64,000 bases of DNA from Phytoseiulus persimilis. Taxonomy: Eukaryota > Arthropoda > Arachnida > Mesostigmata > Phytoseiidae. Under the pieces are notes generated by a model. It was given only the letters and a program-made list of their open reading frames with translations, did not search any database and was not told the origin of the DNA. Shown piece after piece: positions 4,361 to 30,620 of the stretch (position 1 is the first letter of the stretch; each line of letters opens with the position of its first letter). A program made the translations under genes and the position numbers. The stretch is taken from positions 32,860,001 to 32,924,000 of the forward strand of contig CM075101.1 of assembly GCA_037576195.1 (NCBI GenBank). The letters run 5' to 3'.

Positions 4361-4475
4361 GGGGAGAGCCCGCCGAACATCGATTCAACGGATCGACGGC
4401 TGTGAACGGGAATTCAGAAAGCTCAATTCCAAAGCCCATGATGATAGGCGTTGTGCAAATACAGCAGTTGCCGGA

Positions 4476-5599: not shown

Positions 5600-5725
5600 C
5601 CAGACTGAGCTTTCTTATCTCTCCATCAGCCGGCCTTTGGCCGTCTGGAGTCAGCCGCGTTGCGCGCGGTTGGACGGCGTTCCCTGGCATCGAGGCACTT
5701 TTCTCTCTCTTCAGTTGGTCATGGT
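5600..5725 (+). repeat. Dispersed repeat shared with 20,690-20,785
   Basis: The stretch CCATCAGCCGGCC...GGAGTC(A)GCCGCG...ATCGAGGCAC...CTCTTCA recurs in diverged form at about 20,695-20,785. Both copies are followed at some distance by 45-bp minisatellite (5,725 and 21,060), so the pair probably belongs to one ancestral repeat. Confidence 0.5.
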
Positions 5726-6196
5726 TTTGAAAAGTATGGTCAGATTGGTCCTGGAATCACCCCTCCCGATTCGGAGAAGTATGGTCGGATTGGTCGTGGA
5801 ATTACCCCTCCAGTTTCTAAAAAGTATGGTCAGATTGGTCCCGAAATCACCCCTCCAGGTTTTGAAAAGTATAGCCAGATTGGTCCCGAAATCACCCCTC
5901 CAGACTTGTGGAGTGATGGTCAGATTGGTTCCGGAATCACCCCTCCAGGTTTTGAAAAGTATGGTCAGATTGGTCCTGGAATCACCCCTCCCGATTCGGA
6001 GAAGTATGGTCGGATTGGTCGTGGAATTACCCCTCCAGTTTCTAAAAAGTATGGTCAGATTGGTCCCGAAATCACCCCTCCAGGTTTTGAAAAGTATAGC
6101 CAGATTGGTCCCGGAATCATCCCTCCAGACTTGTGGAGTGATGGTCAGATTGGTTCCGGAATCACCCCTCCAGGTTTTGAAAAGTATGGTCAGAGG
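5725..6196 (+). repeat. 45-bp minisatellite, about 10 copies, with 225-bp higher-order unit
   Basis: The tandem unit is 45 bp, built around AAGTATGGTCAGATTGGTCC followed by GGAATCACCCCTCCAGA. Distinct variants recur in the same order every five units, so a 225-bp higher-order unit is present twice (about 5,733 and 5,958). Because 45 is divisible by three and the unit lacks stops, several frames stay open on both strands (215-221 codons on +, 165 on -). I treat these as by-products of the repeat rather than genes. Confidence 0.9.
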
Positions 6197-6384
6197 TTTC
6201 ATGTTCACACGATGGGGCTCACAAGTGTGACGTGCAGTGGAGTTTCATCTGCCTTAATTGAGTATGACCCATGGTTTCCATTACTCCTCATGCGCAGTAA
6301 GCACTGAACAATACGCGTACAGACACAATAGTACCACAGTTATACGTCCGAAAATCACTTCCGTTACCGCTCCGTCTTTCAGCG

Positions 6385-6756
6385 ATGTAATTGGAAAACA
6401 TTCTGGCCAATCTGAAGCAGTTGTGTAGCCTTCTGAATGAGGACGATCCTGCAATGACCAGGTTCCGTTCAAGATGGGACATGTCGATCATGATGATCGA
6501 ATCCATCGTTAGCTTCAGCGCGTTCGTAAAGAGCCGCATTCATTTATCTACAGCTTCTCTTCGGCGACGAACAACACAGCGACCGGTGGAACATGCTTAC
6601 CGGTTGGCAAGAGATATTCGTTCAGAGTTTGGAGAACTCCAGAGGCCGGGTTGGCTGGCACGGATCAAGGAGAGCGACGACAACGACAGCCCGAGGCTGG
6701 TGAGCGAGTGCGGTCCAACGACAACGTTGACTATACTTCTCAGAATCGTGGGGTGA
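6385..6756 (+). pseudogene. Unknown ORF family, copy A, stop at codon 2
   Basis: This is the counterpart of the ORF at 10,808 in block B. Here the start codon ATG (6,385) is followed directly by TAA, where B and C have GAA, so the shared frame cannot start at the conserved ATG. The remaining frame (ENILANLKQLC..., 6,391 onward) is open to 6,756 and runs into the minisatellite. I do not recognise the family. Differences from B include several amino-acid changes, which does not suggest strong constraint. Confidence 0.45.
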
Positions 6757-7130
6757 TTCCGAGACCAATCTGAGCATACTTTTCAAAACCTGGAGGGGTG
6801 ATTCCGAGTCAGAGCTGACCATTACTTCCCAAGTCTGAAGGGCTGATTACGGCGCCAATCTGACCATACTCTTCCAAGTCTGGAGGGGTGATTCCGAGAC
6901 CAATCTGATCATACTTTTCCAAGTCTGGAGAGGTGATTCCGGGATCAATCTCACGATACTTTTCCGAGTCTGGAGGGGTGATTCCGCGACCAATCTGACC
7001 ATACTCTTCCAAGTCTGGAGGGGTGATTCCGAGACCAATCTGATCATACTTTTCCAAGTCTGGAGAGGTGATTCCGGGATCAATCTCACGATACTTCTCC
7101 GAATCGGGAGGGGTGATTCCGGGACACGGC
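6750..7130 (-). repeat. 45-bp minisatellite array, reverse orientation (block A)
   Basis: About eight units of the same 45-bp repeat as at 5,725, here reading GATTCC...ACCAATCTGACCATACTTTTCC on +. With the + array at 5,725-6,196 it forms inverted arms around the unknown ORF. Adjacent units repeat as longer blocks (for example 6,872-6,961 and 7,007-7,096). Confidence 0.9.
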
Positions 7131-7147
7131 GAAGTCTCCGATGTCAA

Positions 7148-7471
7148 GTGCTCAACCTCCGAGAAAACTGCGTAGGGGGAGAAGCCATACACAGACACTC
7201 AACGCGGAGTTTTACAGGTGATACATACCATATTCTTGATGGTTTCACTGAGTGTCGCTTTTTTCTTCTTCTTCACCATCTGCGTGAGGTTCTTCCGGGT
7301 GTCAAAGTTGTAGTCGGCAGCATTGTCAGCGAAGTTGATTGGTCTCGGGATCACCCCTCCAGAGTAGATCATACAATTCGCTCTGGAAAACTCCTTCGCA
7401 TCGCGCTCAAAGACTGTCGAGGACTTTTCCGATTCCTACCGCCGGATGAAGTGAAGGTACTCGGTGTTTGA
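7148..7471 (+). other. Conserved 107-codon frame of unknown significance (block A)
   Basis: A frame starting GTG is kept with very few changes at 11,525-11,848 (two differences near codons 31-34). No domain is recognisable. Since the whole block is recently duplicated, similarity alone does not show coding. It lies between the minisatellite and the 3' end of the ePHD gene. Confidence 0.2.
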
Positions 7472-7657
7472 AGACATCTGGGAACGACGGCGGTCGCTCG
7501 GATCTATCAGCTCATGATCATAGACCTGGCTGACCGAATCTCGGGATTATCCGGGATGATGACAGCCCCGACTTCCCGAGATTAGATAAAATTTATGTGG
7601 GCCAAGTGTCTAAGCAGAAAAGACGAGCGCTGTTTTTTGACAAAAAAAAATGGAACA

Positions 7658-7663
7658 TTTATT
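7658..7663 (-). promoter_or_regulatory. Poly(A) signal of ePHD copy A
   Basis: AATAAA on -, about 45 bases downstream of the ePHD stop codon (7,708-7,710), followed by a T/G-rich run on that strand. The same signal lies at 12,035-12,040 in copy B. Confidence 0.55.
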
Positions 7664-7707
7664 TTTTAAATGTTCAGCAATATGTACATGTCTGTTCCGG
7701 GATGAAA

Positions 7708-8331
7708 CTACAGGCCGCGCACGTTATCAGCACATCTCGAACATCTTGTGTAGTTGCCGCCGTCGTTACCATCGCCTTCATCCCGCCGACAAGGCCAGTG
7801 GAACTTCCTCCCGCATTGGGCGGAGTTTGGGCAGATGACTGTGGCTCCGCTTCGTTTGCATACATAGCATTGTAAGGTCTGAGCCTGGATGAGCTCGTCC
7901 CGGATATCGTTTCCGAGAGGGACACGGTCTCGAAGGTCGGTAGCGTTCTCCTGAGAAGCGAAGGATGGAAGTTATTGATGAAGCGTCCGTTTCAAGCCCT
8001 CAGTCGAAGTAGGCCTCTTGAAAATCAGCGACTTTTCCATCAATTACGCACCACGCATTGACGACAAGCCAGGAATGATTTCTGGACCACCGTGAATTCG
8101 AAATGACGTGCCTCTATGTCGCGGATATCGTAGTGACAAAAGACGCAAACGTTTCCAGGCACTGCAGAAAGAAACATCATTTCAGGTATATGAGCTGTAC
8201 CTAGCTATGTACACTGAGGAACCAAATCGATGAGCCCAACGCAACAGACAGTCATGTCCGAGGGGCAATCGAGGCACAAGATGCGGGTCAAAGGAGAACT
8301 TACCATCCGCTAACAGTCGAAGAGCGTGCAT
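7708..8331 (-). CDS. Extended PHD finger protein (G2E3/PHF7-like), copy A
   Basis: Three exons on -: 8,331-8,304, 8,161-8,052 and 7,950-7,708. Borders are GATG|GTAAGT, CTGCAG|TGCC, GTG|GTGCGT and TTCTCAG|GAG, and the phases join without a break. Exon 2 encodes a zinc-knuckle-like part (CVFCHYD...FLACRQC). Exon 3 encodes a PHD finger with the ligand pattern C-x2-C-x8-C-x5-C-x4-H-x2-C-x15-C-x2-C (CYVCKRSGATVIC...C...FHWPC...CSRC). Together they match the extended PHD module of G2E3, PHF7 and Drosophila pineapple eye, a histone- or protein-binding reader usually in the nucleus. At about 126 residues it is far shorter than those proteins and lacks RING/HECT parts. Compared with copy B one base is missing at 8,331, so the upstream ATG (8,345) is out of frame and translation would have to start at 8,331. 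Expression is unproven. Confidence 0.65.
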
Positions 8332-8345
8332 TCCAATTGATCCAT

Positions 8346-8921
8346 TTCTGACTGGAGGTCTTCGTGCTCTTGAGAGAACTGTGGACCTCGTCGTGCGATC
8401 AGGCCTTTATGTACGCTCGCTGACTTGTGAGATTCGGAGGGGAAACGTCACAAAAATCGACATTAATACGTGCAATTTCGAATTTTGTGGACAAGCGTCG
8501 AATGGGATGTGTGCGTCCGATTTGACATCACGTTCAGAGGGTGCTACTTCGGACTTCTCGCGACGCGTTGGTCGACAGTGACGGACTGGATTCATACTTG
8601 TCGCAGAGTATTGAGCGGCGCTCTATGTAGATTAAAAACTGATTGTCTCCAAAGAAGTTGTCCACCCTAGAACCAACGGTGAATCCAATTGATTGTTGAA
8701 CGGGGAGCTCCACTCCTGTAGTAAAGATGTTTCCTCTCAGTTATCGAAAGCTGTTGCGGTGGATAGGAGTTAGCAGGATAAAGTAAATGTAGAGCAGATG
8801 GTTATTTTCCTCCTGTAGACGGTGGACACCAAAAACAGAGTGTTCAACGAGATCGAAGTTCATCCCAGGGCTCGAGTAGCGGCCAGCCAACGACTCGGCT
8901 CCCGATGAGCTTCAACTGAGC
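8346..8921 (-). promoter_or_regulatory. Upstream region of ePHD copy A with TATA-like motif
   Basis: ATAAAG lies on - at 8,405-8,410, about 65-75 bases upstream of the start codon, in a CG-containing context. It is kept in copy B but is ATAGAG in the dead copy C. Frames here (8,381-8,581 +, 8,407-8,595 -) are not supported as genes. The motif assignment is by eye only. Confidence 0.3.
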
Positions 8922-9296
8922 GCCGCGGTGTGAAGCTAGCTGTTGGTGTGGACAACTCAGCTCGACACGAAATACGCATTTGTCCTCACTCGAACACGAA
9001 TATTCGTCAGGAAACGTGACGGAACACTCGGAGTTCCTAGTTTCGATCACGCAGCGCACTGCATTTGGTCTGCCGGTTAACAGGAACCTGTTCTCCTTTC
9101 GCTGAGGCCCGTCCAGCTCGCCGATCCTTTTTTGACAGCTACATCACGAGCGAGCTGGGCAGTGAGCTCCTCTAAAGACCAATATAGATGAAGGCGAGAT
9201 TTTTCCTGTTCTCAATTTGTACTTCGTCCTACCACAGGTTTCCATTGAGTTCAATCAGCAGCGTTCGAAATCGATTCACTCGAGCAGCGGATGCAC

Positions 9297-9640
9297 AGGG
9301 TGGCTAGTTTCAGTCGGAAATTTTCGAGCCCAATCTTGATCTGGCCATAACTTTCTCGAAAATCAAAAAATTATCGATGGAGGATATCGAGGCGGTCATT
9401 CACTGCAAAATTCAAATTGATATGATGAAAAGGGGGTAAAAATGTTTCTGTAAATGACCCTCTTTTTTTCGAAGCCTCTCTGAAAGTTATCGTGAAAACC
9501 TCAATATTCATCCGATCGGACTCGTAAGGGCTGCGTTGGACGCGTGAAAGGAAGCCTGTCAATTGCCCGAAAACCGATCGGAGTTATTTCATTTCCTCGA
9601 AAAGTGGCAAGCGATCATATCAAGAATTCCCATTGTGTCG
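9297..9640 (+). repeat. Mariner-like MITE fragment hosting the copia target site
   Basis: It starts CAGGGTGGCTAGTTT and continues with CATAACTTTCTCGAAAATC, the style of long mariner-type terminal repeats (CAGGGTGGCCA also occurs at 55,009). Diverged inverted copies are at about 15,235-15,556 and 20,474-20,690. The sequence GTTATTTCATTTCCTCG (9,583-9,600) is the unoccupied version of the site next to the LTRs. No complete element with both ends was found. Confidence 0.45.
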
Positions 9641-9914
9641 AGGGTGATTTTTGCGACCGAGGGCGGAATACTGAATGAGGGCGATATCCGGTGAAAGTCG
9701 ATAATTGTCAGATCGACCTCGCAGCTGAATATTCGGATGATTGACCCATTCAAGAGTATATTCCACCCCAGGAAATACCTTCGATTCTGCCTCTATGAGG
9801 AGTTACGAGGGGTAATGCGAGGGAAAGCGATGAGAACGAAATTAGCCAACAGGTAGGCCCTTGGAAGAGGGGTGAATACGATCGCTGGCCATTTTTTCGA
9901 GGAAATGAGATGAC

Positions 9915-10345
9915 TGTTGAATTTAAGGTTCAACTCTCAACTCAATTCGATGTTGAGCATAGACACTAACAAGAGATTTACAATTTGTGGTTCAGAACTT
10001 TAGCTGAGGGATCTGGAATGCAGTCGATGAAAACACACACTCGGTCAGAGTGACAGCAGTGAGACAACGAGTCGCTCGCAGTTCACGTTTGCGTGCGTGT
10101 GCTTCTGCTCTTGCTCCTTTTATCCTGTGATCCAAGCACCTGAGAGAGTACCGACAAGGTCGTGGCGAAGACACATCAATAAACAATGCGTTTTATCTTG
10201 AAACATAGTTGCGAGGTGGACAATGGTTCGTAACGCCCGGATAGAGGGACATGAACTCTGGGAACCTTGACACAGTGAATAGTTCACGGAATGGTGCGAA
10301 CCATAGTAAGCCCTGGTGAGCGATTCGTAGTCCGAAATTCCATCA
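9915..10345 (-). repeat. Copia-family LTR (3' LTR type), 431 bp
   Basis: Read on -, it runs from TGATGGAATTTCGGA to ...TTCAACA, the TG...CA form of an LTR. It aligns with 20,047-20,473 (5' LTR of the copia element) and 14,112-14,941. Immediately upstream on - is AAAGGGGGAC (10,349-10,358), a polypurine tract, so this is a 3' LTR. It is followed by GTCATCTCATTTCCTCG, a slightly mutated form of the GTTAT target. Confidence 0.75.
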
Positions 10346-10360
10346 GAGTCCCCCTTTCGG
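10346..10360 (-). other. Polypurine tract of copia element
   Basis: GAAAGGGGGACTC on - directly precedes the TG of the LTR at 10,345. The same tract precedes the LTR at 14,112. It would prime plus-strand DNA synthesis in an LTR retrotransposon. Confidence 0.55.
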
Positions 10361-10807
10361 ATGGGATACAGCTCACCATGGCAGCGAGGCGTGCTCAAAA
10401 GAAAAGTAAAGAACAAGAATGGGATGAGTCCGCTTCCGGCAACGGATCGATCTCTGCAACCAATTCCCGATCCGACGACTTCAAGATACGGGAATCCAGA
10501 TGAACTCAAATTGAATCCACACGGTTATTTATTTTTCGAATTTTCCCTATGACGTCATCATCTTCAACTGCGAATGTTTCGAACTTTGTGTCGCGTCAGA
10601 ACTTCCCGCGTTTCATGTTTACACGTTGGGGCTCATTAGTGTGACGTGCAGTGGAGTTTCATGAGCCTACTGCTGCCTCAATCGAATGTGACCCATGGCT
10701 TCCATCCCCCTTGATGCGCAATGAGCACTGACCAATATGCGTACAGACACAATAGTACCACGGTTTACGTCCGAGAATCACTTCCGTTACAGCTCCGACT
10801 TTCAGCG

Positions 10808-11224
10808 ATGGAATTGGAAAACATTCTGGCCAATCTGAAGCAGTTGTGTAGTCTTCTGAATGAGGACGATCCTGCAATGACCAGGTTCCGTTCAAGATGG
10901 GACATGTCGATCATGATGATAGAATCCATCGTTAGCTTCAGCGCGTTCGTAAAGAGCCGCATTCGTTTATCCACAGCTTCTCTTCCGCGACGAACAACAC
11001 AGCCACTGGTGGAACATGCTTACCGGTTGGCAAGAGACATTTGTTCAGAGTTTGGAGAACTCCAGAGACCGGGTTGGCGCGCACGGATCAAGAAGAGCGA
11101 CGACAACGACAGCCCGAGGCTGGTGAGCGAGTGCGGTCCAACGACAACGTTGAGTATACTTCTCAAAACCTGGAGAGGTGATTCCGGAACCAATCTGACT
11201 ATACTTCTCAGAATCGAGGGGTGA
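10808..11224 (+). CDS. Unknown conserved ORF, copy B (MELENILANLKQLC...)
   Basis: The frame opens at ATG 10,808 (in-frame ATG also at 10,721). The predicted N-terminus is helical (MELENILANLKQLCSLLNED). A basic middle and a C-terminus follow that run into the 45-bp minisatellite before stopping. A good donor (GAGGCTG|GTGAGC, 11,122/11,123) lies before the array, so the real exon may end there. Copies lie at 6,385 (start followed by a stop) and 13,861 (-, open). It points towards the ePHD gene of the same block with the array between. No family is recognised and there is no catalytic motif. It could also be the coding part of an uncharacterised mobile element. Confidence 0.35.
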   Translation: MELENILANLKQLCSLLNEDDPAMTRFRSRWDMSIMMIESIVSFSAFVKSRIRLSTASLPRRTTQPLVEHAYRLARDICSEFGELQRPGWRARIKKSDDNDSPRLVSECGPTTTLSILLKTWRGDSGTNLTILLRIEG

Positions 11225-11515
11225 TTCCGAGACCAATCTGAGCATACTTTTCAAAACCTGGAGGGTGATTCCCAGTCAGAACTGACCACTACTTCCCAAG
11301 TCTGAAGGGCTGATTACGGCGCCAATCTGACCATACTCTTCCAAGTCTGGAGGGGTGATTCCGAGACCAATCTGATCATACTTTTCCAAGTCTGGAGAGG
11401 TGATTCCGGGATCAATCTCACGATACTTTTCCGAGTCTGGAGGGGTGATTCCGCGACCAATCTGACCATACTTCTCCGAATCGGGAGGGGTGATTCCGGG
11501 ACACGGCGAAGTCTC
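11160..11515 (-). repeat. 45-bp minisatellite array, reverse orientation (block B)
   Basis: About eight units with the same orientation and neighbours as 6,750-7,130. Unit content differs: B carries a unit at 11,158-11,203 not in A and lacks a pair found in A. The array has therefore changed since the block duplicated. Confidence 0.9.
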
Positions 11516-11524
11516 CGATGTCAA

Positions 11525-11848
11525 GTGCTCAACCTCCGAGAAAACTGCGTAGGGGGAGAAGCCATACACAGACACTCAACGCGGAGTTTTACAGGTGATA
11601 CATACCATATTCTTGTTGGTTTCATTGAGTGTCGCTTTTTTCTTCTTCTTCACCATCTGCGTGAGGTTCTTCCGGGTGTCAAAGTTGTAGTCGGCAGCAT
11701 TGTCAGCGAAGTTGATTGGTCTCGGGATCACCCCTCCAGAGTAGATCATACAATTCGCTCTGGAAAACTCCTTCGCATCGCGCTCAAAGACTGTCGAGGA
11801 CTTTTCCGATTCCTACCGCCGGATGAAGTGAAGGTACTCGGTGTTTGA
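11525..11848 (+). other. Conserved 107-codon frame (block B)
   Basis: Counterpart of 7,148-7,471 with two residue differences. Function unknown; support is no better than for the A copy. Confidence 0.2.
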
Positions 11849-12034
11849 AGACATCTGGGAACGACGGCGGTCGCTCGGATCTATCAGCTCATGATCATAG
11901 ACCTGGCTGACCGAATCTCGGGATTATCCGGGATGATGACAGCCCCGACTTCCCGAGATTAGATAAAATTTATGTGGGCCAAGTGTCTAAGCAGAAAAGA
12001 CGAGCGCTGTTTTTTGACAAAAAAAAATGGAACA

Positions 12035-12040
12035 TTTATT
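12035..12040 (-). promoter_or_regulatory. Poly(A) signal of ePHD copy B
   Basis: AATAAA on -, about 45 bases beyond the stop codon at 12,085-12,087, identical in context to copy A. Confidence 0.55.
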
Positions 12041-12084
12041 TTTTAAATGTTCAGCAATATGTACATGTCTGTTCCGGGATGAAA

Positions 12085-12723
12085 CTACAGGCCGCGCACG
12101 TTATCAGCACATCTCGAACATCTTGTGTAGTTGCCGCCGTCGTTACCATCGCCTTCATCCCGCCGACAAGGCCAGTGGAACTTCCTCCCGCATTGGGCGG
12201 AGTTTGGGCAGATGACTGTGGCTCCGCTTCGTTTGCATACATAGCATTGTAAGGTCTGAGCCTGGATGAGCTCGTCCCGGATATCGTTTCCGAGAGGGAC
12301 ACGGTCTCGAAGGTCGGTAGCGTTCTCCTGAGAAGCGAAGGATGGAAGTTATTGATGAAGCGTCCGTTTCAAGCCCTCAGTCGAAGTAGGCCTCTTGAAA
12401 ATCAGCGACTTTTCCATCAATTACGCACCACGCATTGACGACAAGCCAGGAATGATTTCTTGACCACCGTGAATTCGAAATGACGTGCCTCTATGTCGCG
12501 GATATCGTAGTGACAAAAGACGCAAACATTTCCAGGCACTGCAGAAAGAAACATCATTTCAGGTATATGAGCTGTACCTAGCTATGCACACTGAGGAACC
12601 AAATCGATGAGCCCAACGCAACAGACAGTCAAATCCGAGGGGCAATCGAGGCACAAGATGCGGGTCAAAGGAGAACTTACCATCCGCTAACAGTCGAAGA
12701 GCGTGCACTTCCAATTGATCCAT
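12085..12723 (-). CDS. Extended PHD finger protein (G2E3/PHF7-like), copy B
   Basis: Three exons on -: 12,723-12,681, 12,538-12,429 and 12,327-12,085, coding 131 residues. This is the most complete of the three copies. ATG 12,723 gives MDQLEVHALRLLADG, and all splice borders and zinc ligands are present. The C-terminal PHD has C-x2-C-x8-C-x5-C-x4-H-x2-C-x15-C-x2-C. Before it, LGNDIRDELIQAQTLQCYVC follows the linker pattern of G2E3/PHF7 ePHD domains. The protein ends shortly after the last ligand pair, so it would be a stand-alone reader or adaptor with no ubiquitin-ligase domain. The small introns are 142 and 101 bp. Differences from copy A in exon 2 include one silent change and a Gln/Lys swap. 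It lies convergent to the ORF at 10,808. Confidence 0.7.
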
Positions 12724-13298
12724 TTCTGACTGGAGGTCTTCGTGCTCTTGAGAGAACTGTGGACCTCGTCGTGCGATCGGGCCTTTATGTACGCTCGCTG
12801 ACTTGTGAGATTCGGAGGGGAAACGTCACAAAAATCGACATTAATACGTGCAATTTCGAATTTTGTGGACAAGCGTCGAATGAGATGTGTGCGTCCGATT
12901 TGACATCACGTTCAGAGGGTGCTACTTCGGACTTCTCGCGACGCCTTGGTCGACGGTGATGGACTGAATTCATACTTTTCGCAGAGTATTGAGCGGCGCT
13001 CCGTGTAGAATAAAAACTGATGCTCTCCCATGAAGTTGTCAACCCCAGAACTAACGGTGAATCCAATTGATTGTTAAACGGGGAGCTCCACTCTTGTAGT
13101 AAAGATGTTCCCTCTCAGTTATCGAAAGCTGTTGCGGTGGATAGGAGTTAGCAGGATGAAGTGAATGAAGAGCAGATGGTTATTTTTACTCCTGCAGACA
13201 GTGGACTTAAAAACAGAGTGTTCAACGAGATCTAAGTTCATCCCAGGGCTCGAGTAGCGGCCAGCCAACGACTTGGCTCCGGATGAGCTTCAACTGAG

Positions 13299-13515
13299 GA
13301 CCGGAATCACCCCCTCCAGACTTGGAAGTGTATAGTTAGATTGGCGCCGGAATCACCCCTCCAGACTTTGGAAGTAATGGTCAGATTGGTCTCGGAATCA
13401 CCCCAGCAGACTTGGAAAGCACAGGTCAGACTGGTCTCGGAATCACCCCTCCAGACTTTGGAAGCAATGGTCAGATTGGTCCCGGAATCACCTCTCAAGG
13501 TTTTGAGAAGTATTC
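13299..13515 (+). repeat. 45-bp minisatellite array, forward orientation (block C)
   Basis: About four to five units (GGAATCACCCCTCCAGACTT...GGTCAGATTGGT). It abuts block B at the breakpoint near 13,298 and runs into the inverted copy of the unknown ORF. Confidence 0.9.
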
Positions 13516-13861
13516 TCAACGTTGTCGTTGGACCGCACTCGCTCACCAGCCTCGGGCTGTCGTTGTCGTCGCTCTTCTTGATCCGTGCGCGCCAACCCGG
13601 TCTCTGGAGTTCTCCAAACTCTGAACAAATATCTCTTGCCAACCGGTAAGCATGTTCCACTAGTGGCTGTGTTGTTCGTCGCCGAAGAGAAGCTGTGGAT
13701 AAACGAAAGCGGCTCTTTACGATCGCGCTGAAGCTAACGATGGATTCTATCATCATGATCGACATGTCCCATCTTGAACGGAACCTGGTCATTGCAGGAT
13801 CGTCCTCATTCAGAAGACCACACAACTGCTTCAGATTGGCCAGAATGTTCTCCAATTCCAT
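13307..13861 (-). CDS. Unknown conserved ORF, copy C
   Basis: Inverted copy of the ORF at 10,808. ATG 13,861 is followed by GAA as in B, and the frame is open through the array to 13,307 (in-frame ATG also at 13,948). The core up to about 13,545 aligns with B; the rest is translated minisatellite. The same candidate donor (CTG|GTGAGC on -) precedes the array. Product unknown. Confidence 0.3.
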   Translation of the reverse strand: MELENILANLKQLCGLLNEDDPAMTRFRSRWDMSIMMIESIVSFSAIVKSRFRLSTASLRRRTTQPLVEHAYRLARDICSEFGELQRPGWRARIKKSDDNDSPRLVSECGPTTTLRILLKTLRGDSGTNLTIASKVWRGDSETSLTCAFQVCWGDSETNLTITSKVWRGDSGANLTIHFQVWRG

Positions 13862-14111
13862 CGCTGAAAGTCGGAGCTGTAACGGAAGTGATTTTCGGAC
13901 GTAAACTGTAGTACTATTGTGTCTGTACGCATATTGGTCAGTGCTCACTGCGCATCAAGGGGAATTCCCGCATCTTAAGTCGTCGGATCGGGAATTGGTT
14001 GCAGAGATCGATCCGTTGCGGGAAGCGGACTCATCCCATTCTTGTTCCTTACTTTTCTTTTGAGCACGCCTCGCTGCCATGGTAACTGTATCCCATCCGA
14101 AAGGGGGACTC

Positions 14112-14941
14112 TGATGGAATTTCGGACTACGCATCGCTCACCAGGGCTAACTATGGTTCGCACCTTTCCGTGAACTATTCACTGTGTCAAGGTTTCCAGA
14201 GTTCATGTCCCTCTATCCGGGCGTTACGAACCATTGTCCACCTCGCAACTATGTTTCAAGATAGAACGCATTGTTTATCAATGTGTTTTCACCACGACCT
14301 TGTCGGTACTCTCTCAGGTGCTTGGATCACAGGATAAAAGGAGCAAGAGCAGAAGCACACGCACGCAAACGTGAACTGCGAGCGACTCGTTGTCTCACTG
14401 CTGTCACTCTGACCGAGTGTGTGTTTTCATCGACTGCATTCCAGATCCCTCAGCTAAAGTTCTGAACCACAAATTGTAATGCTCTTAGGTAATGCACGGT
14501 TTATTACTGGGTACCGGGGGAAATACGATTAAATCGACTAGATAGTCTCCAGCGAAAACTATTCGATACAGTGTTGTTACGGGCCCGCGGTACAACGAAA
14601 AGTCGCCGAGAACGGGTTTTAGTAACACGGGTAACAAAAAAATTCCTAGTGAAATTCAGGCGCTGGATGCAGTGCGCTAGCTTGAGATCCTTATCATCGA
14701 GAACATCATGTATAGGAGGGAGAGAGAGTAAGTCAGGGGAGATACGGCATTTGCGAGCAGCCCTCCTAACGAATTTGCGTTGGAAGCGCTCCAAGGCATC
14801 AGTGGATCCCCTGAGCCAAGGCCGCCAGACTCCCGAACCATACAGGAGAGAGGGGAGGACAAGGGACTTATAGGCCCGAAAATAGACGTCAGGGATTCTA
14901 CAATCCCGAATTGAGTTGAGAGTTGAACCTTGAATTCAACA
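14112..14941 (+). repeat. Copia-family LTR (3' LTR type), split by a LINE
   Basis: Starts TGATGGAATTTCGGA, preceded by the polypurine run AAAGGGGGAC, and ends ...TTCAACA at 14,941. It is homologous to 9,915-10,345 but has 14,480-14,906 inserted in place of about 27 bases. The next bases are GTTATCCCATTTCCTCG. GTTAT equals the bases flanking the 5' LTR at 20,474-20,478 (ATAAC on +), a 5-bp copia-type duplication. Confidence 0.75.
14480..14906 (-). pseudogene. 5'-truncated LINE: C-terminal reverse-transcriptase ORF
   Basis: On - a frame open from 14,906 to the stop at 14,501-14,503 carries AYKSLVLPSLLYGSGVWRPW, then LERFQRKFVRRAARKC, then VVPRARNNTVSNSFRWR. This order is typical of the end of non-LTR retrotransposon ORF2 (L-Y-K-S-L...YGS-x-VW, LERxQR, PRxR...F-R). 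The 3' tail after TAATAAAC is about 20 bases. It is inserted in the LTR at 14,112-14,941 with loss of about 27 bases of target. It is a different family from the LINE at 29-30.6 kb. Confidence 0.75.
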
Positions 14942-15234
14942 GTTATCCCATTTCCTCGAAAAATGGCAAGCGATCGTATTCACCCCTCTTCCAAGGGCCT
15001 ACCTGTTGGCTAATTTCGTTCTCATCGCTTTCCCTCGCATTACCCCTCGTAACTCCTCATAGAGGCGGAATTGAAGGTAACTCCTGGGGTGGAATATACT
15101 CTTGAATGGGTCAATAATCCGAATATTCAGCTGCGAGGTCGATCTGACAATTATTGACTTTCACCGGAAATCACCCTCATTCCGTTTTCCGCCCTCGGTC
15201 GCAAAAATCACCCTCGACATATTGGGAATTCTTG

Positions 15235-15556
15235 ATATGATCGCTTGCCACATTTCGAGGAAATGAAATAACTTCGATCGGTTTTCGGGCAATTGACAGG
15301 CTTCCTTTCACGCGTCCAACGCAGCCCTTACGAGTCCGATCGGATGAATATTGACGTTTTCACGATAACTCTCAGAGAGGCTTCGAAAAAAAGAGGGTCA
15401 TTTACAGAAACATTTTTACCCCCTTTTCATCATATCCATTCGAATTTTGCAGTGAATGACCGCCTCGATATCCTTCATCGATAATTTTTTTATTTTCGAG
15501 AAAGTTATGGCCAGAACAAGATTGGGCTCGAAAATTTCCGACTAAAACTAGCCACC
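15235..15556 (-). repeat. Mariner-like MITE fragment, inverted copy
   Basis: Inverted counterpart of 9,297-9,640, ending with GCCACCCTG on + (CAGGGTGGC on -). The frame at 15,293-15,484 is the same chance frame as on - at 9,371-9,562 and on + at 20,499-20,750. Confidence 0.45.
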
Positions 15557-16509
15557 CTGTTCATCCGCTGCTCGAGTGAATCGATTTCGAACGCTGCTGA
15601 TTGAACTCAATGGAAACCTGTGGTAGGACGAAGTACACATTGAGAACAGAAAAAGTCTCGCCTTCATCTATATTGGTCTTTAGAGGAGCTCACTGCCCAG
15701 CTCGCTCGTGATGTAGCTGTCAAAAAGGATCGGCGAGCTGGGCGGGCCTCAGCGAAAGGAGAACAGGTTCCTGTTAACCGGCAGACCGAATGCAGTGCGC
15801 TGCGTGATCGAAACTAGGAACTCCGAGTGTTCCGTCACGTTTCCTGACGAATATTCGTGTTCGAGTGAGGACAAATGCGTATTCCGTGTCGAGCTGAGTT
15901 GTCCACACCAACAGCTAGCTTCACACCGCGGCGCTCAGTTGAATCTCATCGGGAGCCGAGTCGTTGGCTGGCCGCTACTCGAGACCTGGGATGAACTTCA
16001 ATCTCGTTGAACACTCTGTTTTCGAAGTCCACCGTCTACAGGAGGAAAAATAACCCCCTGCTCTTCATTTACTTCATCATGCCAACTCCTATCCACCGCA
16101 ACAGCTTTCGATAACTGAGAGGAAACATCTTCACTACAAGAGTGGAGCTCCCCGTTGAGCAATCAATTGGATTCACTGTTAGTTCTGGGGTGGACAACTT
16201 CATTGGGGAGAATCAGTTTTCAATCTACATGGAGCGCCGCTCAATACTCTGCGAAAAGAATGAATTCAGTCCGTCACTGTCGACCAACGCGTCGCGAGAA
16301 GTCCCAAGTAGCACGCTCTGAAGGTGATGTCAAATCGGACGCACACATCTCATTCGACGCTTGTCCACAAAATTCGGAATTGCACGTATTAATGTCGATT
16401 TTTGTGGCGTTTTCCGTCCGAATCTCACAAGTCAGCGAGCGTACATAGAGGCCCGATCGCACAACGAGGTCCACAGTTCTCTCAAGAGCGCGAAGACCTC
16501 CAGTGAAAA

Positions 16510-16956
16510 ATGGATCAATTGGAAGTGCACGCTCTTCGACTGTTAGCAGATGGTAAGTTCTTCTTTGAATATCACCCGCATATTGTGCCTCGATTGCCCC
16601 TCGGACATGATTGTCTGTTGCGTTGGGCTCATCGATTTGGTTCCTCAGTGAACATACCTAGTTACAGCTCATATACCTGAAATGATGTTTCCTTCTCCAG
16701 TGCCTTGAAACGTTTGCCTCTTTTGTCACTACGATATCCGCGACACAGAGGCACGTCATTTCGAATTCACGGTGGTCAAGAAATCATTCCTGGCTCGTCG
16801 TAAATGGGTGGTGCGTAATTTTTGGAAGGGTCGCTGATTTTCAAGAGGCCCACTTCGACTGAGGACTTGAAACGGACGCTTCATCGATAACTTCCATCCT
16901 CCGCTTCCAAGGAAAACGCTACCGACGTTCGAGACCGTGTCCTCCTCGGAAACGAT
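16510..16956 (+). pseudogene. Extended PHD finger gene, copy C (broken)
   Basis: Exon 1 (16,510-16,552) and its GTAAGT donor are intact. Exon 2 (16,701-16,810) has a stop where A and B read GGA (CCT TGA AAC), and two cysteines of the zinc knuckle are changed (to Arg and Trp). Exon 3 starts after a weakened acceptor (CCAAG) at 16,912 and is cut at 16,956 by copia sequence, so the PHD finger is gone. The TATA-like motif is also mutated. Clearly non-functional. Confidence 0.8.
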
Positions 16957-17510
16957 TTCTTCTCCTATCTTGATTCATGAATAGACCTGTTCTGGTCCGC
17001 CAAAACTGAATCCCAAGGAAGAATGAGATTGGTTTGTATTCTACCTCGAAGTGTACTCTCAGTCCTTCCAGAAACTTCTCAATTATTTCCTAACTTCTTC
17101 CGAGGACAATCAGATCATCGACGTAACACGCCACGGCTAGTGCATCTTCTCTCGTCCCCTGAACACACAGGGATCTGTGCTGCATTGGGACAGTTTCAAT
17201 TTGAGAAGCATTGACTTCAACTTGTCATGCCAGCGTTTTGGGCCTTGGCGACTTCCGACCAGCGGTTTCCTCAACGACAGAAAATGTTTCCCTTCTTCTC
17301 AGGCATTCCTTCTGGTGCTGCCATGTCCAGCGGTGCATCCAGATCTGTATTTAGATAGGCAGTTCCAATGTCTGCCTGGTAGATTGTCTGGTCTTCTCTG
17401 ACCGCGACGTTGAGTAATTTTCTGAGGACTTGGAATCTGATCACTGGTAAATGCACCTGATCGAAATCCTGACCTGGCCTTTGGGTGAACCCTTTCAGGG
17501 TCAAACGGGT
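16957..17510 (-). pseudogene. Copia reverse transcriptase, frameshifted and 3'-truncated
   Basis: On -, 17,504-17,271 encodes KGFTQRPGQDFDQVHLPVIR and then YQADIGTAYLNTDLDAPLDM, the A-K-G-x-x-Q...PV-x-R and D-(I/V)-x-T-A-(F/Y)-L-N blocks of copia RT (first catalytic Asp present). A shift follows, with LRKPLVGSRQGPKRWHDKL and then DPCVF. In another frame comes CYVDDLIVLG with the YVDD catalytic box at 17,114-17,125, then FFLGIQF. The sequence stops at 16,957, where it abuts ePHD copy C. RNase H and the 3' LTR are missing here. Confidence 0.8.
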
Positions 17511-18353: not shown

Positions 18354-18490
18354 CTACGACCGTATTTCTACCGAAAGCTGAAGTATTGGTGGTATTTCTA
18401 CCGAAAGCTGCAGTATTCCTACCAAGAGCTGAAGTATTGGTAGTATTTCTACCGTATTTCTACCAAAAAATGAAGTATTGGTGGTTTTGT
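18354..18490 (+). repeat. 30-bp tandem repeat in place of the integrase core
   Basis: Units like ACCGAAAGCTGAAGTATTGG plus TGGTATTTCT repeat with partial copies of 21 and 11 bp. They sit exactly between the pre-integrase motif (18,470-18,540 on -) and the linker, where the D,D,E integrase core should be. About a kilobase of coding sequence appears to have been lost and this repeat expanded at the junction. Confidence 0.8.
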
Positions 18491-19305
18491 TGGAGAACTT
18501 CCAGGATTTTGTGTTTCCCCACGTGTCCAAGAGCGCGAGGAACTTCTCTGAGGCTTAACATGGTCTCACATGAGGCCTTCAGGGCTTTCGGTTCGCCATC
18601 TAGCGGATCCGCTCTGAGTATGTACAGCCCGTTCATCCCACGGGCTACAGCTCTCCTTCTTCCCAGAGACATCACAATCCTATCGTTTCTCTCCGCGATC
18701 TTGTAGCCGTCGCTCGAATGTTGACCCAGCGAAATCAGGCTGCAGTTCATCGCGGGAACCCACAGAGCGTTCTTCAGTTTGATTATCACTATCTTATTGC
18801 CCTGTTGGACGGCGAGCTCAGCCACTCCGCCTCCTTCTGCTTGAAGGGTTGCAGAGTTACCGAGTCTCACCTCACGTGAGTCCACAGAAGCGTTGAGAGT
18901 AGTGAAGAATAGTTTGTCAGTCAAGATATGACGATTGCTGCCTGAATCCACGATGACTCGGAGTGGGCAAGTCTGTGATTGGGAGCATCCCTCGTTGCTC
19001 TCCGAATCTACTATTGCGTAGACGATACTGAAATTAGCTCTAGCTAGGGGCATCACTCTACCCCCTGCCCGATCATTCGTAGTCTTCCTCTTTGGGCAGG
19101 ATTGTGAAACATGTCCTCGTTGTTCACAAGACCAACACGTCACTTCAGTAGTTATAGTGTAAGACTGTCGCCGAGTGGTGTTGGAATGTTGTCTGCGCTT
19201 GTACTGGAATCTTCTTCTTCGGTAGTGTCCGCGCCTGATATGAGTCCGGGCAAGAAGTGTCGTTACGTCACCAACTCCCTGATCCGTCTTCCGACGAACA
19301 GCCAC
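18460..19305 (-). pseudogene. Copia zinc knuckle, protease and pre-integrase region
   Basis: A 281-codon frame. At residues 57-70 is the zinc knuckle C-x2-C-x4-H-x4-C (CWSCEQRGHVSQSC). Near residue 118 is the aspartic protease motif VIVDSGSNRHIL. ALWVPAMNCSLISLGQ and then a pre-integrase block (ALGHVGKHKIL) follow. It ends in the 30-bp repeat. The order gag-knuckle-protease-pre-integrase is that of Ty1/copia polyproteins. Confidence 0.85.
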
Positions 19306-19959
19306 CGACTTGATCAGGTTGATCCAGGAGGTCAGGGATTCGTTGGTTCCGTCGCGAGTGGCCCATGCTTGTTTGAACGCACTCCAATCTTCTGGGAGCG
19401 AAGTCAGTCCGCGAAAACTGCTGGCTGATGCGGGAATACTCGCTTGCTTTCAGTGAGGTTGAATGTGATTTTCTGATAAGTTTCGATGTTCTGTTCGATG
19501 GTTCCCGATGGCGAGAACTCGGAAGCGACCCAGCTGGATATTGCGTGTTCGCGGAAAAAGCCAGACTCATTCTGGAAGTGTTCCTTCGTCTTCTTCCAGA
19601 TGTCGACTGCTGACACAAGGCCAGAGTCGCTGTGGAACAAGGAAAGTATGATGGAGTGTGGAGAAGAATACTGTTGTGGCATCCTTGTTGCCCATGGTGT
19701 AGTGCTCCTTTGCATCCTGGTCCGTCGAGTCGGGGGTGATTGGGTTACTAGGTCGGATAAATTCCCACGCATACAGCTCGCTCTGCATGTGGGCTGGAAT
19801 GAGTGTTTTCCATTGGAGGAAATTCTTCCCATACTCATCGAGCACTTCAGCTGTTCCGAAGTTGATCTTGGCGGTGGTTCCTTCGTCGTTGACTGCGAGA
19901 ACGACGGCACCTCTCTCCTTGCGCGACCTTCGAAACTCTGTCACTTCAGGTTGTTGCAT
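19306..19959 (-). pseudogene. Copia gag, frameshifted
   Basis: ATG 19,959 opens a frame containing NFLQWKTLIPAHMQSELYAWEF, here cited only as the N-(F/Y)-x-x-W-K...L-x-A-W-x-x-I pattern of copia gag. The frame shifts near 19,640 to one with SAVDIWKKTKEHF, and again near 19,420 to SLPEDWSAFKQAW, both also ordinary copia gag blocks. The third frame is continuous with the zinc-knuckle frame. At least two frameshifts make it inactive. Confidence 0.75.
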
Positions 19960-20029: not shown

Positions 20030-20046
20030 CTCGTGCTGATAACGTC
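20030..20046 (-). other. Probable primer-binding region of the copia element
   Basis: On -, directly after the LTR end (...TTCAACA), the sequence is GACGTTATCAGCACGAG. Its position fits a primer-binding site, and TTATCAG resembles the start of sites seen in other copia elements. No tRNA match was checked. Confidence 0.35.
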
Positions 20047-20473
20047 TGTTGAAGTCCAGGTTCAAGGCCCGACTCAATGCGGTGTTGAGCATAGACACTT
20101 ATGAGAGCTTTGAAGTTTGTGGTTCAGAACTTTAGCTGAGGGATCTGGAGTGCCATCAATGAAAACAGTCGGTCATAGTGACAGCAGTGAGACGACTAGC
20201 AGCTCGCAGTTCACGTTTGGGTGCGTGTGCTTCTGCTCTTGCTCCTTCTATTCTGTGATCCAAGCACCCGAGAGAGTACCGATAATGTCGTGGTAACAGC
20301 AAATTAATAAACACTACGTTCTATATTGAAACGTAGTTGCGAGGCGAACAAGGGTTAGTCACGCCCAGATAGAGGGACTTAAATTCTGGGAACGTCGACA
20401 TGGTCAATGGTTTACGGAAAGGTGCAAACAATAGTCAGCCCTGGTGAGCGGTGCGTACTCCGAAAATCCATCA
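20047..20473 (-). repeat. Copia 5' LTR, 427 bp
   Basis: On -, TGATGGATTTTCGGA...TTCAACA, next to the gag leader, in the same orientation as gag-pol. It is flanked on its outer side by ATAAC on + (GTTAT on -), the same five bases that follow the LTR at 14,941. It is more diverged from the LTRs at 9,915 and 14,112 than those are from each other. Confidence 0.8.
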
Positions 20474-29099: not shown

Positions 29100-30620
29100 T
29101 TTTTCAGTAGTTCATGATAATCGCCGCGGAGGTATAGAATTCAGCCGGGACCTCTCTCATTTTTTGACTAAACAGCTCCCTGAACTTCGACAGTGGCTCT
29201 GTCGGGGGCAGTTGGAGTCTTCTCTCGAGGTCTTCCACAAGAGGTTGCGTTCCAGCCATGGTCGGGACCAGCCGGTTCTTCGCATTCCTGGGCGATCGCA
29301 TTGCCCGTTTCAGGAAAGTTGACTTTACTTTGTCCAGGGCTGCCAGTTGGCTGGCGGTAAGATCCTCCCATATGATGTGGATTCCGTAAGAAGCCGCTGT
29401 ATTCAATCAGGAAGTTCGCGCTTTTCTTCAGCTCTAGAAGCATTCTTTAGTATAGGCCTAGGTCATCGGCATACTGGGTGATTTTCACGCATGAGGAATG
29501 ATTTTCGAGCATCGACGGGGGTCGCTCATAAGGACTATAAAAAATATTGCGCTTAGGTTATCGCCTCGAGCGTACCCAGTCGTTCGTTGGGAGGGCTCGT
29601 GCTCACAGACTCCAAAATCCAGAGCGATAGCGTTCGCCCTCAGTATGGATGACAGGAGCCTCGGGGAACGCTTTCCGACTCCGACGCTTGCCAGTTTCCG
29701 CAGCAGTATCGACCTGGAGGCAGAATCGAATGCGGCACGGTAATCGACGAAGATGGCGTAGAAAGACTTTTTCTTCTCTTCGAGGGAGTGCCGTATTTCC
29801 GATATCAGTTCGCTACATGCCGTCATCGTGGAGTGGTCATTTCGAAAACCGTGCCGCTCTGACGGCTGAACTTCTCTAGCTTCGAGGTATGTGTTCAAGC
29901 GCCGAGCCAGCATCGAGGACAGAATCTTGTAGATGCAGCTTTTCTTGGCAATTCCCCGCCAGGACGAGGGCGAGGGGGGGTAAAGGAAGCTTCACCCTAA
30001 GAAATGACTTTGAGAGAACAGCTCAACCATTCTTTCGGAACGCAGCCAAGTTCAAGGCGCTTGTTGAAGAGGTCGGTCCATAGCGGTATTAGAGGTACGG
30101 CGGCTTTCAGGTTTTCATTCCTGATCAGATCCGGCCCAAACGCTTTTCCTGCTTCCAATCGCTTGATGGTTATTTGGACTTCTTCGATGGTAATAAGCGC
30201 TTCGAGTTCCTCGGCGAGCAATGTCCCGCAAATGGGATTCGGGAACGGAGACGTTTCCGGCACGGGCTGCGAGATGGTATTTGCGGAGCTGAGAAGACTT
30301 TTGAAATGGTCTCGCACGATTTCCGCCGGGATAGGGCAGCTCCGATAAATTTGCGCTGCCCTGAGGGCCATGTAGGGGAGAGACTGAGCTTGGAGAACCA
30401 TTTTGTCTTCCTCCGTACACGCCTGCATCTTCCTCGTGAAGTCGATCAGCGCCCTGAACGTTCTCCGGTGTGCACAGTAGAGATCTTGACAGGGTTTATC
30501 CTAGAGAGAATCAGTGGTTGAATCACCATTCTGCGAGCGTCGTGGCATCTTTGGTCGAACCAGATGGGCGATCGGTGATTGGGTGATGGCGAAAAATCAA
30601 TTCGGGGAATGAATGGAAGA
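29100..30620 (-). pseudogene. LINE ORF2 remnant with reverse transcriptase
   Basis: On -, in order: a pre-RT segment with PIWFDQRCHDARR (30,655-30,446); ITIEEVQITIKRLEAGKAFGPD and LFNKRLELGCVPKEW (30,428-29,997), the finger motifs of LINE RTs; HGFRNDHSTMTACSELISEI and FVDYRAAFDS (29,913-29,485), with the catalytic Asp; TTGYARGDNLSAIFF (family: G-x-R-Q-G-D-P-L-S); YADD at 29,462-29,473 in another frame; and a C-terminal part with ASYGIHIIWEDLTASQL (29,406-29,104). At least three frameshifts or stops break it. No endonuclease is visible. It lies inside the interval bounded by the palindromic termini at 28,718 and 31,729. Confidence 0.85.

Follow-up and report, generated by a model that had tools for sequence, protein, structure and literature searches.

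A small family of stand-alone extended PHD genes, most likely derived from a PHF7/G2E3-type gene, in the genome of Phytoseiulus persimilis

A stand-alone extended PHD gene family

The window analysed here, a 64,000-nucleotide (nt) stretch at C1:32860001-32924000 of the 181-Mb, 127-contig genome of Phytoseiulus persimilis, contains three copies (W1, W2 and W3) of a three-exon gene encoding a single extended PHD (ePHD) domain, as an earlier note on this DNA had described. Our analysis indicates that W1, and perhaps W2, probably encode proteins and belong to a small family of stand-alone ePHD genes that would derive from PHF7/G2E3 and whose products would bind chromatin without ligase activity; we assign this reading a probability of about 0.6. 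Diverged members of the family are under purifying selection, and judged from its sequences the family appears to consist of functional genes and not of repeat debris. A gene found amid repeats is not to be dismissed as such debris.

The intron boundaries previously proposed for W1, 12680/12539 and 12428/12328, proved correct, as they are flanked by GT..AG sites and join exons of 43, 110 and 243 nt into a product of 131 residues (aa). The claim that two copies keep all zinc ligands and splice sites held for W1 and W2, but it had missed a 1-nt deletion in exon 1 of W2. From the first ATG of W2 the frame soon hits a stop, and a later ATG opens the correct frame of 126 aa. W3 has an intact exon 1, an exon 2 with a stop and two zinc cysteines replaced, and an exon 3 that ends after 15 codons. 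The features of the three copies are as follows.

12723-12085, minus strand: W1 gene, intact, 131 aa
12681..12723, minus strand: W1 exon 1, 43 nt, ATG at 12723, donor GTAAGT
12429..12538, minus strand: W1 exon 2, 110 nt, acceptor CTGCAG, donor GTGCGT; pre-PHD knuckle C-x2-C ... C-x2-C
12085..12327, minus strand: W1 exon 3, 243 nt including the stop; PHD part C-x2-C, C-x5-C, H-x2-C, C-x2-C
12784..12789, minus strand: CATAAA, TATA-like (presumed function), about 60 nt 5' of the W1 ATG
12035..12040, minus strand: AATAAA, about 45 nt 3' of the W1 stop, then a T-rich run
8345-7708, minus strand: W2 gene, 99% identical to W1 over the gene
8304..8345, minus strand: W2 exon 1, 42 nt, 1-nt deletion, in-frame ATG at 8331
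8052..8161, minus strand: W2 exon 2
7708..7950, minus strand: W2 exon 3, 243/243 identical to W1 exon 3
16510..16956, plus strand: W3, inverted pseudogene copy

A protein search of the genome with exon 3 at expectation values (E) up to 1, whose counts are lower bounds, located at least 19 places, 17 of them at E ~0.005 or better, where the earlier note had named hundreds of decayed copies as a sign of mere repeat sequence. At least 11 places were found by DNA search, while a genome search with PF13771 gave 28 places, among them unrelated ePHD genes and open reading frames (ORFs) like those of long interspersed nuclear elements (LINEs). Seven members (W1, a, b, e, f, L043 and g) have complete three-exon frames with GT-AG sites and the same intron positions and phases. 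They count as some five independent branches, since a and b, like f and L043, are near twins. Protein identity to W1 was 93% for a, 55% for e, 42% for f, 46% for g and 63% for L044, and intron place and phase remained constant down to 42% identity. The main cluster of the family lies at C1:39.446-39.465 Mb, and members outside the window are located as follows.

C1:39.446 and 39.452 Mb: a and b, complete frames
C1:39.457 Mb: e, complete frame
C1:39.455 Mb: f, complete frame
C1:39.877 Mb: L043, complete frame, near copy of f
C1:39.461 Mb: g, complete frame
C1:41.91 Mb: L044, exons 2 and 3
C1:39448489-39448703, 39454154, 39458624 and 39464774; C2:28850677; C1:29459844; C66:120953: broken copies or fragments

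Exon 1 of L044 was not found, and an interspersed repeat lies directly 5' of its exon 2. A TATA-like motif occurs at a similar place in a and b (CATAAA), g (TATAAG) and f (TTTAAAA). AATAAA 3' of the stop is common to W1, W2, a, b, g and L044 and is absent in f.

The product had been described as nothing more than an ePHD of PHF7/G2E3 type without RING or HECT, and the domain searches bear this out. Each of the six diverged members was matched by PF13771 within the E limit of 1, the best at 1.2e-6 and W1 at 3.1e-6. W1 alone scored 27.7 bits, just below the curated cut-off of 29.1, and its exon 3 in the genome search scored 32.3 bits, above that cut-off. The best relative in the PDB was PHF7 (entries 8jws, 8jwj and 8jwu) at E 1.3e-6 with a slightly misspliced 133-residue form as the query, and a profile with the correctly spliced form matched PHF7 at E 1.3e-5. 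In W1, 19 residues precede the first ligand and 7 follow the last, and in all seven complete frames the stop codon lies 6-9 residues past the last zinc pair with no RING after the ePHD. The alignment of six diverged members has 26 invariant columns; 11 of the 12 zinc-ligand columns are invariant (hypergeometric p 2.6e-8, a value that is partly trivial, as cysteines are conserved anyway).

Selection on family members

The ratio of non-synonymous to synonymous substitution rates (omega) was estimated by pairwise maximum likelihood for 16 of the 36 possible pairs among nine sequences, where W3 was left out, L044 was entered without exon 1 and W2 was read from its later ATG. An omega of 1 was rejected in 13 of the 16 tested pairs (omega 0.11-0.55, p <=0.03), including W1-a (0.26, p=0.002), W1-e (0.12, p=4e-10), W1-L044 (0.44, p=0.002) and f-g (0.49, p=0.005). 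The comparison of dN/dS between copies that the earlier note had proposed thus gave values below 1 in most pairs, with the three youngest pairs indistinguishable from 1. Between W1 and a, exon 3 was 94% identical, introns 1 and 2 were 77% and 85% identical and the flanks 84-85%; the 14 differences in exon 3 fell on the three codon positions as 2, 2 and 10.

It is unlikely, in our estimate, that the family is a former gene now dying as pseudogenes, in which W1 survives by chance and through gene conversion with W2. Many members are indeed broken or fragmentary (W3, the first ATG of W2, several copies near 39.4 Mb of C1, C2:28850677, C1:29459844 and C66:120953), and 835 nt are identical throughout between the tandem copies (11626-12460 = 7249-8083), a stretch that runs from within exon 2 through intron 2 and exon 3 into the 3' flank. 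Because the identical run covers intron 2 and the 3' flank, it cannot come from coding constraint alone, and since identity drops to 88-96% in 200-base steps beyond it, recent gene conversion between W1 and W2 is likely the best explanation. A dying family is difficult to reconcile, however, with the low omega values in 13 of 16 pairs or with seven complete frames, some of them highly diverged, whereas the copy at C1:39454154, with 65% identity to exon 3 and two stops, illustrates how a copy free of constraint appears once it has diverged to a similar degree.

Origin from a PHF7-like gene

The genome contains a PHF7/G2E3-type gene from C2:30412410 onward, with a predicted model of 268 residues that aligns to PHF7 over residues 21-262 (E 2.6e-36) and scores 70.5 bits with PF13771. 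Its later part scored 24.6 bits as PHD (cut-off 24) and 19.3 bits as RING, below the cut-off, and is called a putative RING from the alignment to PHF7. The predicted exon 1 of this gene is 49 nt and ends in phase 1, exon 2 is 113 nt and exon 3 is the remainder; intron 2 is in phase 0, one residue past the second zinc pair. In the family, exon 1 is 43 nt and ends in phase 1, exon 2 is 110 nt and intron 2 is in phase 0 at the same residue, so that both introns within the shared part agree in place and phase (2/2). No intron was present at the intron-2 point in seven other ePHD loci read as a single frame (L012, L014, L016, L017, L018, L019 and L021), nor in L039, where the domain is split farther on. 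The ePHD is split in two in L020/L031, and L013 duplicates L012 by score. When a family profile was compared with 12 PHD domains of the genome, the PHF7-like protein scored best (25.8 bits; next 15.6). The shared introns and the best profile score therefore suggest that the family most likely arose from the 5' portion of this gene, with loss of the RING.

Alternatively, the ePHD could be a convergent, independently assembled zinc module that does not descend from PHF7/G2E3, for which we see only a slim chance. This would agree with the low sequence identity to the PHF7-like protein, its long branch, and the histidine-to-cysteine changes in both zinc pairs, but not with two introns that agree in place and phase, with exons of similar size or with the best profile score among 12 domains.

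Several observations weigh against W1 as a working descendant of a PHF7-like gene. Omega was indistinguishable from 1 in the three youngest pairs (W1-W2 0.78, a-b 0.43, f-L043 0.53), dS was saturated in several distant pairs and the pairs are non-independent. Exon 3 of f and g is 77% identical, barely above their introns (71-73%) and below the 5' flank (83%). With regard to descent, the domains in the profile test were cut by hand and those of L016 and L020 lacked the first zinc pair, while the exon 1 assigned to the PHF7-like gene is predicted, as the sole candidate passing a simple scan of the upstream stretch. A protein tree resolved little, and in it the branch of the PHF7-like protein is very long, at 6.63 changes per column; the tree adds little for this reason, and descent from the PHF7-like gene rests on the introns and the profile score. 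The ligand pattern also differs. The C2HC + C4HC2H pattern of PHF7/G2E3 proteins, which the genome's PHF7-like protein has, is not that of the family, where both histidines are cysteines: with the shared intron and the last pair as anchors, C-x2-C stands in place of the pre-PHD H-x2-C and also of the closing C-x2-H. The ligand set of the family is therefore not identical to that of PHF7, and its ePHD retains a single ligand histidine, although zinc could still be held after such replacements. In addition, one knuckle cysteine is missing from the twins f and L043, so the zinc knuckle may be relaxed in this branch. Lastly, fold prediction of exon 3 alone gave no confident model (mean predicted local distance difference test score, pLDDT, 41).

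If W1 is a protein-coding offshoot of PHF7/G2E3, the family would have started with a copy of the 5' part of the genome's own PHF7/G2E3-type gene, comprising the first two exons and the portion of exon 3 that encodes the ePHD, and ending after the PHD. Multiplication by local and segmental duplication would then have followed, mainly in the C1:39.446-39.465 Mb cluster, and the window would be a later outpost of the family. The product would be a nuclear zinc module binding chromatin (histone tail or DNA) and unable itself to ubiquitinate. As a product without a RING cannot be a RING ligase, its role may be that of a bare reader or adaptor, or of a competitor of the full-length PHF7-like protein.

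Comparison with known ePHD proteins

The ePHD-RING proteins PHF7/G2E3, of which G2E3 has a HECT-like part, align with the family from DI..E through the PHD core to FHxPC, and the full-length homologue in this genome has both intron positions and phases of the family. In contrast, family products such as the 131-aa W1 lack the RING and later part and carry cysteine in place of two histidines. Because the stop follows the ePHD and no RING is present, the family is filed only as a likely PHF7 offshoot and not as PHF7. PHF6 is a larger protein with two ePHDs, and the PHF6 ePHD (PDB 4nn2) matches residues 20-110 of the family profile at E 2.4e-4.

PHF11 has one ePHD and is not known to have a RING or HECT, and primate PHF11 acts on foamy virus. 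Judged from published descriptions, it resembles the family in its single ePHD and in its multiplied locus in mice, and it differs in that W1 has no N- or C-terminal domains around the ePHD. The PHF11 literature describes five paralogous copies over 148 kb at the mouse locus, of which four are considered potential pseudogenes (PMC4239810), and elsewhere four mouse genes of variable sequence (PMC7390438); mouse Phf11d is given as 337 aa with N- and C-terminal domains, and PHF11 is said to appear unique to vertebrates (PMC4239810, PMC7390438). A one-ePHD protein with a locus multiplied in mice means that the kind is already known. Phf7 has been termed a histone reader (PMC7973481), and double-stranded DNA was suggested as the ligand of the PHF11 ePHD (PMC7390438).

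The family members would most likely read chromatin or DNA while lacking ubiquitin-ligase activity, with vertebrate PHF11 as a comparable case, and the domain itself makes a role as chromatin reader plausible. It can also be imagined, though we consider it decidedly unlikely, that RING-less PHF7 offshoots are fast-turning competitors of the PHF7-like protein or independent chromatin effectors (in the germline, or against repeats or viruses), and that gene conversion preserves the similarity between zinc-finger exons of adjacent copies. Within the accessible text of the open-access literature searched, neither a stand-alone ePHD family in an arthropod nor an intron-traced PHF7 offshoot with a single ligand histidine in its ePHD was found. 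If expressed, the family would be a case in which PHF7, an E3 ligase known for its germline role, has spawned proteins with the chromatin-reading module only. This opens the questions of what role a reader has without its ligase and whether animals have amplified ePHD genes more than once, as happened with PHF11 in mice.

Duplications and repeats in the window

The tandem duplication described earlier was recovered with a spacing of 4378-4423, as 6196-8920 recurs at 10610-13298. Two of the duplication junctions sit at 45-bp repeat arrays, and an open frame that looks coding by length accompanies the gene in all three units.

6196..10609: first duplication unit (T1)
10610..13298: second duplication unit (T2), 93% identical to 6196-8920
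13302..16959: inverted copy of 7903-11363, in pieces at 93-97%, interrupted at 14487-14906 and beginning at a 45-bp repeat array
10715-11224 (plus), 6391-6756 (plus) and 13307-13954 (minus): companion open frame

The companion frame 10715-11224 was considered as a second gene or element protein and rejected, as it has no Pfam match and a stop in one window copy. Its differences by codon position (4, 1, 5 and 5, 6, 8) have no clear third-position excess, its sole matches outside the window are three fragments at C3:25.21 Mb, and we take it as probable non-coding repeat.

The suggestion that the gene is cargo of an unrecognised mobile element spreading through the genome found no support and is very improbable: the window copies do lie amid repeats (copia-like remains, a LINE-like fragment and 45-bp arrays), one copy is inverted and some members are far apart on C1 and C2, but the shared stretches end differently for each pair (1.15 kb for W-a/b, 0.55 kb for W-L044, 0.27 kb for W-L045 and 3.7 kb for a-b), the two ends of the W1 unit are not linked by an inverted repeat (W1 region only; of three weak pairs there, each has one or both arms within the unit), copy number is low (at least 19 places in the exon-3 search) and the companion frame lacks a coding signal.

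The 45-bp minisatellite occurs in both orientations at 5678-6262, 6706-7230, 11155-11502 and 13274-13518 of the window, and also on contig C3 (L047, 3265-4168). An ORF with a Pfam match to Ty1/copia-type Pol_BBD lies at 18460-19449 (minus); a stretch near it (20046-20473) recurs at 83-85% within the duplicated unit (9914-10345 and 14112-14485) and is perhaps a solo long terminal repeat. The stretch interrupting the inverted copy contains an ORF at 14504-14935 (minus) that has no Pfam match and, by eye, resembles a LINE end. A reverse transcriptase ORF at 29485-30500 (minus), with RVT_1 at 29485-29991, probably belongs to a non-LTR element.

Elsewhere in the genome, the ePHD loci L012 and L013 (C1:5168463 and C1:5180330), 12 kb apart, have equal ePHD scores of 84.6 bits each, which would reflect either recent duplication or assembly doubling; by eye, L012 resembles a protein of PHD-ePHD-bromodomain type. 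Repeated ORFs that carry a PHD-like finger, which by eye are probably LINE ORF1, were observed at L034 and L037/L038 (C3:28.28 Mb, C1:54.46 Mb and C3:24.63 Mb). L034 and L037 share with the family a short PHD-like finger in repeated DNA, but they are longer single-frame ORFs and score only 9.6 and 12.3 bits with the family profile. L037 and L038 score alike in the PF13771 search.

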